Below are positions 35,280-42,978 of a DNA stretch of 64,000 bases, piece after piece (positions within the stretch are counted from its first letter, which is position 1; each line of letters starts with the position of its first letter). The translations under genes were made by a program, and so were the position numbers. Under the pieces are notes generated by a model. It made no database searches. It was not told the DNA's origin and saw only the letters and a list, made by a program, of their open reading frames with translations. Source of the stretch: Phaeocystidibacter luteus (GTDB taxonomy: Bacteria > Bacteroidota > Bacteroidia > Flavobacteriales > Schleiferiaceae); contig NZ_WBVO01000004.1 in NCBI RefSeq assembly GCF_008933115.1, positions 62,001 through 126,000 on the forward strand. The letters are read 5' to 3'.

Positions 35280-37304
35280 ATGAAGAAATTTACTCCGACT
35301 CTCTTGGGTCTGTTGGTAGCTTCTGCGGCTTTCGGACAGGAACAAGTGAACACGCTTCCAGCTCAGATGGAAGTAGCGAACCCGGAGACTCAAGTGAACA
35401 TCACTCCACGTACAGATTACCGTGGAAGTGAAGCTATCCTTTGGTCTGAGGACTTCGCAAATGGTATCCCTGCTACTTGGTCAAACCAAGGTTTCGATGG
35501 AAACCTTAGCCCTTTGGCTGCTGCTCAGTGGGAATATCGTGGCACAAGCACAACTCCAACTAATGCAGAAGGATCTCGTGGTGCTTTCTCTGGTGTGAAT
35601 AACAACCCACCAACTAACGATCCAGTTGCTTCGACTACGACAGCTAACGGTTTCGTTATTTTTGATTCAGACTACCTTGATAACTCAGGTAACTCTGCTA
35701 ACATTGGTGGTGGTACTGCTCCAGCTCCACACGTTGGTACTTTGACAACTAGCACGATTGACCTTACAGGTGAGCCGTATGTTATGTTGGAAATGGAGAG
35801 CTACGCCCGTGTGTTCTTCGCGAACATGCAAGTTGCTTTCTCAACTGACGGTGGTACTACTTGGGGAGATACAGCGACTATCTACACAGACGCTTCTTTG
35901 GGTGTTAACGGTTCTTCTGCAAACGCTGACCTAGTACAGGTAAACGTTTCAAACATCATCGGTAACCAGTCTAACGTGAAGATGCGTTTCATCTTCGACG
36001 GTCGTCCTGGTAACGCCAACGGTAACGGTTACTACTTCTGGATGATCGACGATATCCGTCTTAGCGACCTTCCACGTCACTCTATCCGTTTCGTTGAGAA
36101 CACTGACGGTGCACCAGAGCGTGACATCATCTATGGTACTACTACTGGCGAGAGCAAGACTGGTATCATGACACTTAAGCAGACTCGTCCTATCGCGTTC
36201 GACTGTAACGTACTTAACTTCGGTTGGGACCAGCAGGACAACGTACAGCTTGAGCTTCAAGTGTTGAGCAACGGTAACGTAGTTCAAACTTTGAACTCTG
36301 GTACTGTAAACGTTGCTTCAGGCGGTATTGCTGACTACACTGTGTTGAACACTTCTACTTGGACTCCAAGTGCAGAAGGTGCTTACGACATCGTTTGGAT
36401 TGCTAAGTCTGACTCTTGTAACGGTACTGTAGCTCCATTCGCTTCTGATACCTCTACTATCTACGTTACTGATTCATTGTTGTCACTTGACTTCAATGTA
36501 TTCGAAAACCGTTTCGGTACTGGTAACATTGGTGACGACGGTTCTGCTGTTGCAACTCGTATGGACCTCGTTCAAGACGAGCGTCTATTCGCTGCTGACA
36601 TCTGGTTGTCTGCTACTACTGTTCCTGGTGGTGTAATTGAGGTTACTGTTTACGATACTACTGGTTTCGACTTCACAAACGGTTTCCCTACTCAGCCATT
36701 GGCTTACTACCAGCACACTGTTACACAAACTGACGTAGACAATGGTGCTATCCGCGCTGACCTTACTGGTACTGACGGATTCCCAGTTTACCTCAGCACT
36801 GCTAACACTGGTTCTTACTACATCGTGGTTACTTTCTTCTCTAATGCAGGAGCTAACCCAATCTTCCTTCGTAACGACCAGAGCTTCCCACAACCAGCGC
36901 TTTCTTCGATCATGTATTACACGATCTCTAGCCCGCGTTGGTACACAGGATTTACAAACAGCTTGTCTATCAACGGTCTTCACATCCGCGCCATCACTTG
37001 CCCAGCTGCTTCAGCTGCCGCTTGTATGGAAGTTGGTATCGAAGAAGTTGATCTAAGCAACGTTATCGACGTTTATCCTAACCCAGCTGAGGACGTAGTA
37101 TTCCTCGAGTTCGGTGACGATTTCAACGGTGATATCGAAATCAACGTAGTAGATCTTCAAGGTCGCACTGTGATTTCTACTTCTGAAGTAGCTATCGAAG
37201 GAACTAAGGTTCCAGTTTCATTGAATACTTTGACTCCAGGTGTTTACATGATGAACATCGCTCAAGGTGACGCAATGAGCACATTCAAGCTTACCGTGAA
37301 GTAA
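35280..37304 (+). CDS. Secreted T9SS cargo protein, cleaved-adhesin/choice-of-anchor J type
   Basis: 674 residues. The signal peptide MKKFTPTLLGLLVASAAFGQ is followed from about residue 50 by an adhesin-like jelly-roll domain (ILWSEDFANGIPATWSNQGF onward; FIFDGRPGNANGNGYYFWMI). A second beta-rich region fills the middle, and the type A sorting tail starts near residue 595 (VYPNPAEDVVFLEF, DLQGRTV, LTPGVYMMNI). T9SS would export it and cleave off the tail, leaving it on the surface or released. Codon use is strongly skewed towards GGT, GCT, ACT, AAC and TAC, which suggests high expression. The gene at 37595 is a close paralogue. Confidence 0.93.
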   Translation: MKKFTPTLLGLLVASAAFGQEQVNTLPAQMEVANPETQVNITPRTDYRGSEAILWSEDFANGIPATWSNQGFDGNLSPLAAAQWEYRGTSTTPTNAEGSRGAFSGVNNNPPTNDPVASTTTANGFVIFDSDYLDNSGNSANIGGGTAPAPHVGTLTTSTIDLTGEPYVMLEMESYARVFFANMQVAFSTDGGTTWGDTATIYTDASLGVNGSSANADLVQVNVSNIIGNQSNVKMRFIFDGRPGNANGNGYYFWMIDDIRLSDLPRHSIRFVENTDGAPERDIIYGTTTGESKTGIMTLKQTRPIAFDCNVLNFGWDQQDNVQLELQVLSNGNVVQTLNSGTVNVASGGIADYTVLNTSTWTPSAEGAYDIVWIAKSDSCNGTVAPFASDTSTIYVTDSLLSLDFNVFENRFGTGNIGDDGSAVATRMDLVQDERLFAADIWLSATTVPGGVIEVTVYDTTGFDFTNGFPTQPLAYYQHTVTQTDVDNGAIRADLTGTDGFPVYLSTANTGSYYIVVTFFSNAGANPIFLRNDQSFPQPALSSIMYYTISSPRWYTGFTNSLSINGLHIRAITCPAASAAACMEVGIEEVDLSNVIDVYPNPAEDVVFLEFGDDFNGDIEINVVDLQGRTVISTSEVAIEGTKVPVSLNTLTPGVYMMNIAQGDAMSTFKLTVK

Positions 37305-37362: not shown

Positions 37363-37594
37363 ATGTACACCTTTTCAACTCGTAAAGATTGTCTTTACTC
37401 GGAGCTAATGTTTTGAGTTTGTGCCTGAGTATGGGCTTAGGTAAATTGCTGTAACACTTTTGGGAACGTTTTAGGCATACACCTTCACCTTCAACTAATC
37501 GCCTTTAGTCCGGCCCAAAAAGTGACGGGATTACAACCGTAAACACAAATCAACAGCGACGAAAATCGTCGTGAAAAAACTCAAAACACGAATC
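37363..37594. other. Leader region of the second T9SS cargo gene
   Basis: 232 bp with no gene longer than 17 codons. An AT-rich stretch with ACACTTTTGGG near 37455 could contain the promoter, but no perfect TAnnTTTG box is present. A GTG at 37571 is in frame with the next gene but would put eight basic residues before the signal peptide. Confidence 0.4.
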
Positions 37595-39595
37595 ATGAAG
37601 AAGATTACTCTATCTCTTCTTGGTCTAGCTATGTGCGCAACTTCGTACGGACAAGCCGACCAAAATCAACTCCCCGCTCAGAAAAAACAGTACGAGCTCG
37701 AGACGGTTCAATTTCAAGCCCCTCGCACACATCAGTCATCCGGCACCGAAGCCGTTTATTGGTCAGAGGACTTCGCAAATGGAATCCCAGCAACTTGGAC
37801 AAATCAAGGTTTCGATGGTGGCCTACAACCTATGGCTGCTGCACAATGGGAATACCGCGGTCCAGGTACAACTCCCGGAGTAGGTACCGGCTCTCGTGGT
37901 GCATTCGCCGCAGCAAACGACCCTATTCAATCAGCTACACGTACCAACGGTTTCGTGATTTTTGATTCTGGCTGGTTGGATAACAACGGTAGCTCTGCCA
38001 CAGTAGGTCAAGGCGTTGCTCCCGCTCCACACGTGGGTACGCTTACCACCGACACAATCGATTTGACAGGGCATCAGTACATCATGCTTGAGCTGAACAG
38101 CTACGCACGTGTGTTCTTTGCCAATATGCAAATCGCAATGTCGCCGGACGGTGGCGTTACTTGGCCAGATACCATCACAGCGTATTCCGACGCTACTCTT
38201 GGTGTAAACGGTGCATCTCCAAACGTAGATAACCTTCAATACAACATCAGTGCAGAGCTCGGTAACTCAGCCAACGCGATGATTCGTTTCATCTTCGACG
38301 GTCGCCCTGGCAATGCCAATGGCAACGGGTACTACTTCTGGTGTCTCGATGATATCAGCATTTTGGACCTGCCAAATCACTCCGTTCGCTTTGTTGAAAA
38401 TACAGATGGCGCTCCAGCGCACGATATCATCTATAATAACGACGGACTTTCTTCTAAGCACGGCATCATGCCACTAAAGCAGAATCGTCCTATTTCATTT
38501 GACGCGAACATCTACAACTTCGGATCGCAGCCGCAAACAAACCTTCGTCTGCAAATTGATATCCTTGACGATAACGACAATGTTGTTCAAACACTCAGCT
38601 CTCAGTCTGTAACACTTCAGCCAGACAGCATCGCTGATTACAATGTGATGAATACCGCAGCATGGACTGCCACAACTACCGGAAACTACCGAGTGGTTTA
38701 TTCAGCCCTTTCCGATTCTGTTACAGGAGCGGACATTCCGCGCGACACATTCCAAATCTTCGTGACCGATTCATTGATGTCTACCGACTTCAATACATTC
38801 GATAACCGTTTCGGTACGGATGATATCGGTCCTGACGGATCTGCGATTGCTTCCCGCTTTGACCTTGTACAAGGCGAAAGAATCTTTGGTGCAGATATCT
38901 GGTTGTCTAACACGACCGTTGCTGGTGGAGTAGTAGAGGTGACCATCATGGATACCACTGGCTTTACCTTTACTAACGGATTCCCAGGTCAGCCCCTCGC
39001 TTACGTACAGCACACCGTTACAGCTCAAGACGTAGCGAATCGTGTTATCCGAGTTCAATTGCGCGATGCTTCTGGACTACCAATTACATTGGATGCGACC
39101 AACACAGGCGCTTACTACGTAGTTGTGACCATGTTCTCAAATGCGGATGCAAATCCAATCAACTTGAGAAACTCAACCCACTTCTCCCAGCCTTCACGTT
39201 CGTCTATCATGTATTACACGATTTCAGCACCACGCTGGTACACCGGATTTGAAGGTTCACTTGATTTGAATGCACCACACATCCGTGTTATTACATGTGC
39301 GCTTTCTGATCCTGCTGGATGTGCCGTATCTGTAGAAGAAATCGACCTTTCAAATGAGATCAAACTATATCCAAACCCAGCTGACGAATACGTGAACATG
39401 GAGTTTGGAGATGTTTCGGGTGAATTCGACCTACGCATCGTCGATATGCAAGGCCGCACTATCACTACAAAATCTGAACTCGCAGTACCTGGAACTTCTG
39501 TTCCAGTTGACGTGAGTATGCTAACTCCAGGGGTGTACATTCTCTCTGTGGAGAAAGACGATTCAGTTAGTTCGTTCCGATTGACTGTTGAGTAA
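37595..39595 (+). CDS. Second secreted T9SS cargo protein, paralogue of the preceding gene
   Basis: 666 residues from ATG 37595, which gives a clean signal peptide (MKKITLSLLGLAMCATSYGQ). It follows the same plan as its neighbour: VYWSEDFANGIPATWTNQGF, FIFDGRPGNANGNGYYFWCL, SIMYYTISAPRWYTGF, then a type A sorting tail (LYPNPADEYVNMEF, DMQGRTI, LTPGVYILSV). The two are similar along their whole length, so they arose by tandem duplication. Its codon use is more mixed than that of the first copy, pointing to lower expression. The sequence suggests adhesion or surface coating; no enzyme motif is visible. Confidence 0.92.
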   Translation: MKKITLSLLGLAMCATSYGQADQNQLPAQKKQYELETVQFQAPRTHQSSGTEAVYWSEDFANGIPATWTNQGFDGGLQPMAAAQWEYRGPGTTPGVGTGSRGAFAAANDPIQSATRTNGFVIFDSGWLDNNGSSATVGQGVAPAPHVGTLTTDTIDLTGHQYIMLELNSYARVFFANMQIAMSPDGGVTWPDTITAYSDATLGVNGASPNVDNLQYNISAELGNSANAMIRFIFDGRPGNANGNGYYFWCLDDISILDLPNHSVRFVENTDGAPAHDIIYNNDGLSSKHGIMPLKQNRPISFDANIYNFGSQPQTNLRLQIDILDDNDNVVQTLSSQSVTLQPDSIADYNVMNTAAWTATTTGNYRVVYSALSDSVTGADIPRDTFQIFVTDSLMSTDFNTFDNRFGTDDIGPDGSAIASRFDLVQGERIFGADIWLSNTTVAGGVVEVTIMDTTGFTFTNGFPGQPLAYVQHTVTAQDVANRVIRVQLRDASGLPITLDATNTGAYYVVVTMFSNADANPINLRNSTHFSQPSRSSIMYYTISAPRWYTGFEGSLDLNAPHIRVITCALSDPAGCAVSVEEIDLSNEIKLYPNPADEYVNMEFGDVSGEFDLRIVDMQGRTITTKSELAVPGTSVPVDVSMLTPGVYILSVEKDDSVSSFRLTVE

Positions 39596-39626: not shown

Positions 39627-39657
39627 ACCGCCCATCATTTCGATGGGCGGTTTTTTT
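39627..39657 (+). terminator. Rho-independent terminator after the second T9SS cargo gene
   Basis: ACCGCCCATC (39627-39636) / GATGGGCGGT (39642-39651), a perfect 10-bp stem with a 5-nt loop and seven T residues. Confidence 0.93.
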
Positions 39658-39738: not shown

Positions 39739-42700
39739 ATGTCCAAACATTTACGCGCTTTTACACTCCTGATAGCCGTGCTGCTATGCTCTAATGCATG
39801 GGGGCAATTCTACTATGGACTACACCAAACTTTCGGGAAGAATAGAGTAGAGTTCACGAGGTTCGATTGGAATTTCTACCGCTACGATCGATTCGATGTG
39901 TACCATTATGAAGACGGACAGTACCTCGCTCAGCAAGTAGCGCGCATCGTAACCCGACAAATGCCTATCATCGAACAGGCCTTAGATGTGCCCCTTGATG
40001 AGCGCATTCAAATCATGGTTTTCAACAACCTGAGTGAGCTCAAGCAAAGCAATCTTAACGCATCGGACGATGAGTCGTACAATACGGGAGGCGTAACCCA
40101 CTTCGCAGGCACCCGAATCTTTGTCTATTTTGATGGCGACTATGCGCATCTAGAATATCAAATTAGAGAAGGATTAGCCGGCCTAGCCCTGAATAATTTA
40201 ATGTACGGTGGCTTCACCCAGAGTATTCGAAATTCAACCTTGCTGAATCTTCCTGAGTGGTTCACGGAAGGTATGCTGGCGTACTTAGCTTATCCATATT
40301 CCTCCGATGTGGAGAATTACATTATCGATGGAATGACCCACGATAAGTACGATCACTTGTATGCGCTTACTGGGTACGAAGCACGAGCTGCAGGCCATAG
40401 CCTTTGGAACTACATCGCAAAAACCTACGGAGAAAATCTCATCAAGAACATCGTCTATACGACCGTGATGGAGCGTAGTATCGATAAAGGCCTCCAATAC
40501 AATTTGGGCGTGAACTCCGAACAACTGCTGCGAAACTGGCAACAGTATTATGCCCAGTTGATTCCCATGGGTTTCAATGAGGAGGCTGTCGAAGATTTGG
40601 AGCTCAGAAGAAGCCGCAGAGATGGCAGGCTAAACCGTCCTTTGTTTTCGCCAGATGGAACGCACATAGCCTATGTTCGAAATCGACTAGGGAAGTATAG
40701 GGTGAGTATTCTTGACATTGAAGAAAACGATCGTACGACCGTTCTTCGTGGAGGTCACCTCATCGCACAAAATGCCGACTATAGCTACCCACTCATGGCT
40801 TGGCATCCAAATGGGAAGATTCTAGCTATCATTACCGAAGAGGAAGGCTTAACCTGGTTGTACTTCTACAATGTTGAGGAGGGTGAACTCGAGAAAAGAG
40901 AGTTCTACGGCTTTCAGAAAGTTCGCTCTATCACGTATTCTCAAGACGGTAGACAGTTTTTGATGTCGGCCGTTCAGAGAAACCAGTCGGACATCTTTCT
41001 GTACACCATTTTGTCTAAGAGCATCAAGCCACTTACGAAAGACGGCTATACAGACCTAGACCCGATCTTCGTCAACAACGATAAGTTCATCGTTTTTAGA
41101 TCGAATCGAGACAACGATACTTTACAGCAGGGGCTGGAAGTCTTCAATCACCCCAATAGATTTGACTTGTTCATCTACCGAATGGACAAGCCCGAAGATC
41201 AAGTGCTGTGGCGCTTGAATACCCCAAGTGGTCTTAATGAAATTCAACCCCGCTCCATTGGCGATGGGTACTTCACCTACAACGGTTCAACTAGTGATGG
41301 TGGAGCTGCCAAAACCTACATGGTTCAGCTCGATTCTAGCATCGCATTCGTAGATACAATCACGCATTACGATTACTTCATCCGACAGGCCGAACTTGAA
41401 TCTCCAATATTTGGCACGGTGAATTATGACATCAATCGTGAGACGCAACAGATTTCGAGAGTGTACATGCGGGACGATAGATACAGGCTGGCAGTTGATT
41501 ACTTTGAGTTTCCAGATGAGTTTATCTCCGCCGTTAGAGGTGAAGAAGTGGCAGGTGGTGCCTTCCCGACCAATGATCCGGAAGAGGTGGTTGATGCAAG
41601 AAAGCAAGGGGAGGTTGACATTCACAATTACGAGTTTGCACCAGAAGCGTTAGCGCTTATCAAAACCCGAACCTCCGTGCCGGTTCAAACAACCTCAAAA
41701 GAAAACTTGGATAGTCTTTTTGGTGAAGACTTCCCAATTCCTCAAGACCGGATTTACCTGCTCTCCTTCATCCGAGATGAGTTTACAGTTCAAATCGATA
41801 ACGTATTTGATTACCCTCAATATCAGCCATTTACTGGGACACCAGGTGGAGGGCTTATCAATACAGGTTTCAATACAATGTTCAAGGTAGGGGCAGTAGA
41901 CATCCTGAACGACTATCGCATGATTGCTGGGTTCAGGACCGATTTCCAACCACTACCTGGGGTATCGTTAAGTCCGAACTCCGAGTTATTCTTTGGGTTC
42001 CTTGACCAGAAAAGCAGATGGAATTCTGAAATATCACTCTACCGCAGGAGTCAGGTTGCTTTCTTACCAGACGCCTTTGCAAATGCGCGTTACTTGACCT
42101 ACGAGGGGCATTATAAGATGGATTATCCTTTGAGTCAAGTAGCAGGTTTCCGGTTCTCTGCAGGGTATAGAAATCAGAGGCGAATCATTTTGATGGACAA
42201 TGCTGCTACCGTGGTTCCAGGAGAGCTAGATCCAGTATCCATCACGGATTATGGAATTCTCAAAGCTGCATTTGTATACGACAATACGCGGAAGAAAGGC
42301 ATTAACCTCTACCACGGTACTCGGTATAAGATCTTCACGGAATTCTATGAGAACCTGAGTAGCAGTAACTCCGGAATGGTCACTCTTGGTATCGATTGGA
42401 GGAACTACATCCCGGTGCATAGGGAGATTATTTGGGCGAATAGATTCGCCTTTGGAACCTCCTTTGGAAACGAGTTGTTGCTGCATTATCTAGGTGGGGT
42501 CGACAATGAGTTTGCTCCTGCCTTCACGAACAACACACCGTATGCGCGCGATCAGAATTACGCGTTCCAGACCGTGGTAACCAACATGCGAGGATTCTTC
42601 CAGAACATCAGAAATGGAAATAGCTTCGCAGTAATTAATAGTGAACTGCGGATTCCAGTAGTGAAGTACTTGATTAATGCGCCCATTCAGAATGACTTCC

Positions 42701-42978
42701 TAGCGAACTTCCAAGTCATAGGTTTTGGAGATATAGGTACAGCTTGGAACGGACTTCACCCGTATGTTGAAGAGAATGCTATCAATACCAGAACGGTAGA
42801 TCGACTGGGTTACCGCGTGGTTCTCGATACACAAAGAGAACCTATAGTGGGTGGATTCGGTTTTGGACTTCGCAGCCGACTTCTCGGATATTTCTGTCGA
42901 GTAGACTGGGCTTGGGGTGTAGAGGATGGGGCTATCCTCGATCGCGTATTCTACTTCTCTATCAGCACCGACTTCTAG
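39739..42978 (+). CDS. Gluzincin-like domain + TolB-like propeller + Omp85-type barrel fusion
   Basis: 1079 residues. A signal peptide (LIAVLLCSNAWGQ) leads to a peptidase-MA-like domain (about 30-285) whose catalytic HExxH is replaced by REGLA (Arg143-Ala147), although the downstream LPEWFTEG (Glu177) is kept. A TolB/WD40-type propeller follows (FSPDGTHIAYVRN, MAWHPNGKILAII, ITYSQDGRQFLMS). From about 690 to the end is a barrel with the Omp85-like MRGF (950-953) and SELRIPV, ending in VFYFSISTDF. No POTRA domain is visible. The domain order suggests an outer-membrane protein with a large periplasmic part; the role is unknown. It ends four bases inside the convergent nth gene. The -7-like TACCTTTA lies six bases before the ATG. 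Confidence 0.8.
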   Translation: MSKHLRAFTLLIAVLLCSNAWGQFYYGLHQTFGKNRVEFTRFDWNFYRYDRFDVYHYEDGQYLAQQVARIVTRQMPIIEQALDVPLDERIQIMVFNNLSELKQSNLNASDDESYNTGGVTHFAGTRIFVYFDGDYAHLEYQIREGLAGLALNNLMYGGFTQSIRNSTLLNLPEWFTEGMLAYLAYPYSSDVENYIIDGMTHDKYDHLYALTGYEARAAGHSLWNYIAKTYGENLIKNIVYTTVMERSIDKGLQYNLGVNSEQLLRNWQQYYAQLIPMGFNEEAVEDLELRRSRRDGRLNRPLFSPDGTHIAYVRNRLGKYRVSILDIEENDRTTVLRGGHLIAQNADYSYPLMAWHPNGKILAIITEEEGLTWLYFYNVEEGELEKREFYGFQKVRSITYSQDGRQFLMSAVQRNQSDIFLYTILSKSIKPLTKDGYTDLDPIFVNNDKFIVFRSNRDNDTLQQGLEVFNHPNRFDLFIYRMDKPEDQVLWRLNTPSGLNEIQPRSIGDGYFTYNGSTSDGGAAKTYMVQLDSSIAFVDTITHYDYFIRQAELESPIFGTVNYDINRETQQISRVYMRDDRYRLAVDYFEFPDEFISAVRGEEVAGGAFPTNDPEEVVDARKQGEVDIHNYEFAPEALALIKTRTSVPVQTTSKENLDSLFGEDFPIPQDRIYLLSFIRDEFTVQIDNVFDYPQYQPFTGTPGGGLINTGFNTMFKVGAVDILNDYRMIAGFRTDFQPLPGVSLSPNSELFFGFLDQKSRWNSEISLYRRSQVAFLPDAFANARYLTYEGHYKMDYPLSQVAGFRFSAGYRNQRRIILMDNAATVVPGELDPVSITDYGILKAAFVYDNTRKKGINLYHGTRYKIFTEFYENLSSSNSGMVTLGIDWRNYIPVHREIIWANRFAFGTSFGNELLLHYLGGVDNEFAPAFTNNTPYARDQNYAFQTVVTNMRGFFQNIRNGNSFAVINSELRIPVVKYLINAPIQNDFLANFQVIGFGDIGTAWNGLHPYVEENAINTRTVDRLGYRVVLDTQREPIVGGFGFGLRSRLLGYFCRVDWAWGVEDGAILDRVFYFSISTDF

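Follow-up and report, generated by a model that had tools for sequence, protein, structure and literature searches.

Relation to described Omp85 proteins

Heinz and Lithgow (2014; PMC4104836) named WD40-Omp85 among ten subfamilies of Omp85 proteins, and the main text of that paper gives it a TolB-like propeller placed N-terminal to an Omp85 barrel. Here we analyse a gene of this build in a 64,000-nucleotide stretch of the Phaeocystidibacter luteus genome (contig NZ_WBVO01000004.1, positions 62,001 to 126,000; hereafter the window), whose product carries a protease-like domain ahead of the propeller and the barrel. We equate its family with the published WD40-Omp85 by architecture alone. The main text of PMC4104836 does not contain the word 'peptidase' and, where consulted, mentions neither the protease domain, nor its loss, nor a linkage to tamB for WD40-Omp85, and the peptidase domain, its class-wide loss and the tamB link were not found in the open-licence texts searched. 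The fusion of barrel and propeller is already described; the peptidase domain, its loss and the tamB link appear to be new as far as these texts go.

Other described systems share parts of this build. In the 'Metallo' subfamily, too, the Omp85 barrel is preceded by a metal-dependent enzyme, but according to the main text of PMC4104836 this domain is PF00149, is conserved only at genus level and comes with no mention of a propeller, whereas the N-terminal domain of the present family is predicted to be a gluzincin (PF13485 in relatives). BamA, TamA and TamL share the 16-strand barrel with an RGF loop motif but carry POTRA domains, TamL being a lipoprotein; the window protein instead has the propeller and a pseudoprotease, and no lipobox was seen in it by eye. 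PlpD likewise fuses an enzyme fold to an Omp85 barrel; its enzyme is a lipase delivered to the cell surface, and the window protein has a propeller and a dead protease in its stead. PF13485 proteins, collagenase and the M1 and M30 gluzincins share the fold of the N-terminal domain; their full HExxH...E is found in family members from other classes and is missing from the window protein and from every Bacteroidia-type row examined. BepA of Escherichia coli is similar in idea, as a zinc-peptidase fold in the periplasm that can either assist or degrade an outer-membrane client on the beta-barrel assembly machinery, BAM (PMC8423444, in the part consulted); it is, however, a separate, active protein of family M48, and serves as an analogy only.

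Architecture of the window protein

The reading frame has no internal stop and occupies a single place in its genome. An AlphaFold2 model built on an 81-row alignment (the window protein and 80 relatives) had a mean predicted local distance difference test (pLDDT) of 80.6 and a predicted template modelling score of 0.78 over the full length. Its barrel spans residues 669-1079 and its propeller 288-590; ahead of the propeller lie a signal helix and an alpha/beta domain (24-287), and a low-confidence linker (about 600-660) joins propeller and barrel. The predicted mature start is at about Q23, which is invariant in 81 of 81 rows. Foldseek matched the model to TolB and BamA with E values of about 1e-10. 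The barrel (678-1079) aligned with BamA 8xnb_A at a VIA-align Z of 22.5 over 323 residues (root-mean-square deviation, rmsd, 4.8), with further fold matches to Flavobacterium johnsoniae BamA, E. coli BamA, TamA and mitochondrial SAM, and 16 membrane strands were read from the DSSP string (from 677-687 to 1065-1076), 1017-1030 being taken as an extra-barrel hairpin. R951 and G952 are present without exception in the 81 rows and in all of 21 diverse members, intact relatives included; the MRGF to which they belong lies between strands 11 and 12, which we take to be the position of loop 6 in Omp85 proteins.

The Pfam scan of the window protein returned a PD40 repeat and two weaker propeller models, NCBIfam and PDB sequence searches led to TolB, and the propeller (284-569) also matched TolB 4pwz_B in fold (Z 22.9, 237 residues). 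No Omp85 (PF01103, PF19143), POTRA or peptidase model matched up to an E value of 1, and the gene is absent from the five PF01103 places of its own genome, so that the Omp85 assignment comes from the fold match. A POTRA domain was neither found in the Pfam scan nor seen in the secondary structure of the model, and the same library detects POTRA well in the BamA and TamL of this genome. The first-pass annotation, made from the DNA alone, had proposed an Omp85-type barrel in which POTRA is replaced by a TolB-like propeller and a dead gluzincin-like domain, and had named the lack of a 16-strand barrel in a predicted structure as refuting it; the present results agree with all of these parts.

Modelled separately, the N-terminal domain reached a pLDDT of 82.4. 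Foldseek matched it to gluzincin peptidases (E 1.1e-5), and VIA-align to collagenase 7wss_A (Z 15.4, rmsd 4.5, 237 residues), the M30 lugdulysin 7bb8_A (Z 14.7) and M1 aminopeptidases. For helical models, a VIA Z of less than about 13 may carry little meaning, and the match at rank 50 stood at 12.8; nearly all rows of the search belong to one fold, that of the gluzincins. Judged from these models, the domain is a gluzincin fold. Pfam Peptidase_MA_2 (PF13485) matched 9 of 21 diverse members, with a best E value of 9.6e-17, and left the window protein itself unmatched. A PF13485 search of the window genome gave two matches, both below the cut-off and neither of them the WD40-Omp85 gene; a Peptidase_MA_2 match of 30.3 bits (cut-off 32.4) was noted at G000:C5:29504-29806 (L185).

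Absence of the zinc site in Bacteroidia-type sequences

In an ungapped alignment, IHHELVHA of the intact relatives stands opposite IREGLAGL of the window protein, so that the HExxH columns correspond to EGLAG (144-148), and the column of the third ligand to E177. The first-pass annotation had read the site as REGLA (143-147), one residue early. By its own criterion an intact HExxH in another register would have refuted it; the alignment with intact relatives revealed none, either at the former site or near it.

All 31 genomes examined from the phylum's other classes (26 family codes) retain HExxH together with the third Glu, against 0 intact sites in 129 Bacteroidia-type rows (125 distinct). 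In the latter, column 144 holds A in 65 rows, E in 17 and S in 16, with others including one His; column 145 holds G in 92 and A in 25, besides others; column 148 has E in 66, Q in 17 and R in 17, with others including two His; and column 177 has E in 35, N in 22, D and K in 18 each and Q in 14, besides others. In locus L042 (G304, family code f24) the four columns read H, D, M and P, and the His in the column of the first ligand may be a remnant of the zinc site. With the motif columns excluded, a tree of 48 lost and 31 intact genomes (79 in all) divides intact from lost at a single branch with a Shimodaira-Hasegawa-like approximate likelihood ratio support of 100, and one change on the tree accounts for the split. 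Because the wider gluzincin family consists of active peptidases, we infer that this change was a loss on the branch to Bacteroidia rather than a gain. Within the intact clade, the open frame at L146:5559-10148 (G062, family code f27) has 1530 residues, some 400 above the usual length, possibly reflecting an extra N-terminal part.

The dead domain has been kept. In the 81-row alignment the commonest residue of a column has a mean frequency of 0.60 for the N-terminal domain, 0.54 for the propeller, 0.61 for the barrel and 0.26 for the linker; since its conservation matches that of the barrel, the domain is, on this sequence measure, a maintained pseudoprotease, which suggests a binding or structural role. 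The first-pass annotation had taken a kept EWFTEG as the sign of substrate binding, a view not borne out by the alignment, where residue 177 is E in only 35 of 129 rows; a retained role is suggested by the constancy of the whole domain instead.

Distribution and samples

The family gene was found in 35 of the 60 nearest relatives, at one place per genome in 34 of these and in two pieces in the remaining one. In the phylum sample, 220 of 296 genomes matched at an E value of 0.001, and 192 matches besides the window's own were strong; the weak matches set aside before this count came from family code f31 (21 genomes, E 9.6e-4 to 9.8e-7) and from six further genomes (E 6.4e-4 to 1.6e-14). In the class sample, 242 of 295 Bacteroidia genomes matched at 1e-20 in a profile search whose matches may be partial. 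Other classes of the phylum gave 159 strong matches, and the zinc site was examined in 31 of these: 11 among the best-scoring phylum loci and 20 chosen one per family code. These classes were assigned by kinship labels and not by taxon names; Bacteroidota in GTDB includes Rhodothermia, Ignavibacteria, Kapabacteria and Chlorobia beside Bacteroidia. None of the 35 same-order genomes listed, which all have family code f3 or f6, gave a strong match; the model species F. johnsoniae presumably belongs to the group coded f3, where matches are weak or missing.

The 129 Bacteroidia-type rows comprise 48 genomes labelled as own class or nearer, the window again, and 80 named records, four rows duplicating others (the window and L001, L060 and L003, L061 and L004, L063 and L006). 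To judge by their titles, the 80 named records all come from metagenome-type assemblies. In NCBI ranks, 55 of them are assigned to a named class of Bacteroidota and 21 to the phylum only; three are titled Chlorobiota/Chlorobi (L094, L095, L132) and one Saccharibacteria (L131). Every one of the 80 resembles class-labelled Bacteroidia more than the intact set, and they were therefore counted as Bacteroidia-type; for the last four, identity is 0.40-0.45 to the former versus 0.25-0.27 to the latter. Bacteroidia-type copies under these four titles may reflect errors of naming or binning, or transfer. If the three Chlorobi titles are right, loss of the zinc site is not confined to one class.

Linkage to tamB and rnr in the intact clade

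Longer stretches around the family gene were viewed in 30 of the 31 intact genomes (L145-L174). In 16 of the 30 loci, rnr (RNase R) lies directly upstream on the same strand, with a median gap of 26 bp to a frame counted from the previous stop, so that the true gap is somewhat larger; the RNB domain was confirmed by Pfam in one of these upstream genes. A gene of the AsmA/TamB type precedes rnr in 13 of the 30, giving the order tamB-rnr-WD40-Omp85. The rnr loci showing no tamB are L170, which is at a contig end, and L147 and L168, which are not. Seven of the TamB-type proteins were read whole (1516 to 1581 residues). Of seven scanned, two exceed the PF04357 cut-off of 22.4 bits (61.6 and 81.7); a profile of the intact-clade TamB-type cluster scored 366.6 bits against the TamB of the window genome.

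The 13 tamB loci fall in both halves of the intact tree. The rnr arrangement also occurs in both halves, with at least five changes forced by well-supported branches, and is therefore probably ancestral in the intact clade and repeatedly lost. Upstream of tamB, 12 stretches viewed by eye showed shikimate-kinase and aroB-like genes in six, heptose-kinase-like genes in four and others in two. A TamL query matched 11 of these 12 genomes (E 2.5e-79 in G134, 3.1e-37 to 6.7e-5 in the other ten), and all 11 matches lie on other contigs or more than 100 kb from tamB.

Proposed role and alternatives

We tentatively interpret the window protein as an outer-membrane biogenesis factor of the WD40-Omp85 type, allied to the translocation and assembly module (TAM), a reading that we consider quite possible. 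The barrel would lie in the outer membrane, and the propeller and peptidase fold would extend into the periplasm, where they would replace POTRA domains. This periplasmic module would catch unfolded outer-membrane proteins or dock TamB, and would deliver clients to the seam of the barrel. The site of the intact relatives would have the added task of degrading clients that stall near TAM, as BepA does on BAM, and Bacteroidia would have retained binding and guiding and given up cutting. In a wider scenario, possible but doubtful as a whole, the ancestor of Bacteroidota had a protease-propeller-Omp85 protein beside tamB as the outer-membrane end of a TAM-type system, an insertase with quality control; in Bacteroidia the protease would have become a pseudoprotease and the tamB link been broken, and most lineages would have retained the protein as an assembly factor that only binds, alongside TamL. 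The first-pass annotation had suggested an uncharacterised outer-membrane assembly or export component: such a role is the likeliest and its function is unstudied, although the fusion itself had been named WD40-Omp85, as the main text of PMC4104836 shows.

Several observations weigh against an alliance with TAM. Five of the seven TamB-type proteins scanned matched AsmA or DUF748 only (three AsmA, one of them above the cut-off, and two DUF748 alone, below it), and 14 of the 30 intact-clade loci lack an adjoining rnr. As rnr stands between tamB and the family gene, the linkage may be an old operon rather than a sign of joint work, and in G322 tamB has a BamA gene with POTRA domains some 10 kb upstream as well. 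No tamB occurs near the gene in 91 (81 + 10) Bacteroidia-type neighbourhoods, which covered up to 8 kb on each side and less on short contigs; two of them have RNase R about 6 kb from the family gene. The window genome has a separate BamA with POTRA domains, a TamL-type Omp85 protein with POTRA (L202), and a TamB (L201, PF04357 E 3.6e-52) on a different contig from the gene. TamL is also the reported partner of TamB in Bacteroidota, according to the main text of PMC12045153. That text further reports tamL and tamB outside one operon in Bacteroidota, with which their separate places in the window genome agree; an earlier paper, as far as consulted, mentions TamL-TamB operons (PMC4494059).

A rather unlikely alternative is that the protein inserts some of the outer-membrane proteins in the manner of BamA, its propeller serving as a fused BamB and its dead peptidase as a scaffold, with TamB uninvolved. 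Among structures, BamA is the best match for the barrel and TolB for the propeller, the main text of PMC4104836 calls WD40-Omp85 reminiscent of a BamA-BamB fusion, and tamB linkage was not seen in Bacteroidia-type neighbourhoods. Two points count against this alternative: tamB and rnr are linked to the gene on each of the two deep branches within the intact clade, and the window genome has a separate BamA with POTRA domains.

It is unlikely that the protein exports itself in the manner of PlpD, with the barrel bringing the protease-like and propeller module to the surface, where it would bind, or in intact relatives cut, external substrates. The patatin-Omp85 protein PlpD does deliver a lipolytic domain to the surface (PMC4104836, main text), and the window genome holds a patatin-Omp85 protein of its own (L204:4639-6870, minus strand), at a place separate from those of BamA, the TamL-type protein and TamB. 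The wide spread of the family (242 of 295 Bacteroidia genomes) and a dead domain as constant as the barrel would rather resemble housekeeping than a surface enzyme that varies.

An accessory role in the type IX secretion system (T9SS) is improbable. SprA was found in 191 of 192 strong phylum matches and in 239 of 242 class matches (lists compared by hand), but also in 36 genomes of the phylum sample and 47 of the class sample that lack the family gene. Since SprA is near-universal in the class (286 of 295 genomes), co-occurrence there says little; of nine class genomes without it, six lack the family gene and three have it (G402, G061, which is in one contig, and G510, which is 56% complete). 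For genomes from beyond the class, the presence lists of SprA and the family gene are identical, with 159 genomes each, an agreement which may reflect a single event; among the negatives listed there, all have family code f31, and 47 further negatives lie beyond these. SprA occurs in 56 of the 60 nearest genomes and the family gene in 35. We read this co-occurrence as shared ancestry, and not as proof against a T9SS link. The two T9SS cargo genes that the gene follows, as the first-pass annotation had noted, are real: they are tandem paralogues, 60% identical, with Por_Secre_tail domains. They carry no weight here, as a terminator-like stem separates them from the WD40-Omp85 gene and the adjacency is confined to close kin: the pair precedes the family gene in L060, from the same genus, but not in L061, from the same family. 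The terminator scan gave two sites overall versus 2.7 in shuffled sequences, so that the weight of this stem lies in its length. A T9SS role was thus unsupported, beyond shared ancestry, by the co-occurrence and neighbourhood tests.

Least probable is an envelope tether or Tol-Pal-like part whose propeller binds a Pal-type lipoprotein, as the resemblance of the propeller to TolB in sequence and fold leaves the Omp85 barrel and the peptidase fold unexplained.

Features of the locus

The features of the window gene and its upstream flank are given in Table 1. In the 80 named loci, with gene names assigned by eye, a metallo-beta-lactamase-fold hydrolase is divergent upstream in 35 of 70 with more than 1 kb of flank, and downstream, where the flank exceeded 1.8 kb, TauE/SafE occurs in 31 of 69, an M20 amidohydrolase in 34 of 69 and, farther on, ribonucleotide reductase in 23 of 69. 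This Bacteroidia-type neighbourhood has no envelope theme and was discarded as a functional clue.

Table 1. Features of the WD40-Omp85 locus, in window positions.
Feature	Position	Strand	Basis or remarks
T9SS cargo gene, first of tandem pair	35280..37304	+	Por_Secre_tail domain
T9SS cargo gene, second of tandem pair	37571..39595	+	Por_Secre_tail domain
Terminator-like stem between T9SS cargo genes and WD40-Omp85 gene	39627..39651	+	10 pairs, 7 G-C, T run
WD40-Omp85 gene (protease-like domain, propeller and Omp85 barrel)	39739..42978	+	ATG open reading frame, 1079 residues
Signal peptide, residues 1-22	39739..39804	+	Sequence; model helix 2-14
Predicted gluzincin-fold pseudoprotease domain, residues 24-287	39808..40599	+	Structure models, fold matches
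Former HExxH site, now EGLAG, residues 144-148	40168..40182	+	Alignment with intact relatives
Former third zinc ligand, E177	40267..40269	+	Alignment; E in 35/129 Bacteroidia-type rows
TolB-like propeller, residues 288-590	40600..41508	+	Pfam PD40; TolB by PDB sequence and fold
Variable linker, residues 591-668, mostly low-confidence	41509..41742	+	pLDDT below 50 in most of 600-658
Omp85 barrel, residues 669-1079, 16 strands, C-terminal F1079	41743..42975	+	Model, fold match
MRGF, residues 950-953, Omp85 loop-6 motif position	42586..42597	+	Alignments

Significance

Most of the sampled Bacteroidia (242 of 295) carry an Omp85 protein that goes unnamed in two papers on outer-membrane assembly in Bacteroidota, PMC12611786 and PMC12045153, whose main texts contain neither 'WD40' nor 'propeller'. 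The clade with an active site and the clade with an inactive one form a natural experiment in which cutting and binding could be told apart, and the tamB neighbourhood offers a concrete candidate partner for the family.

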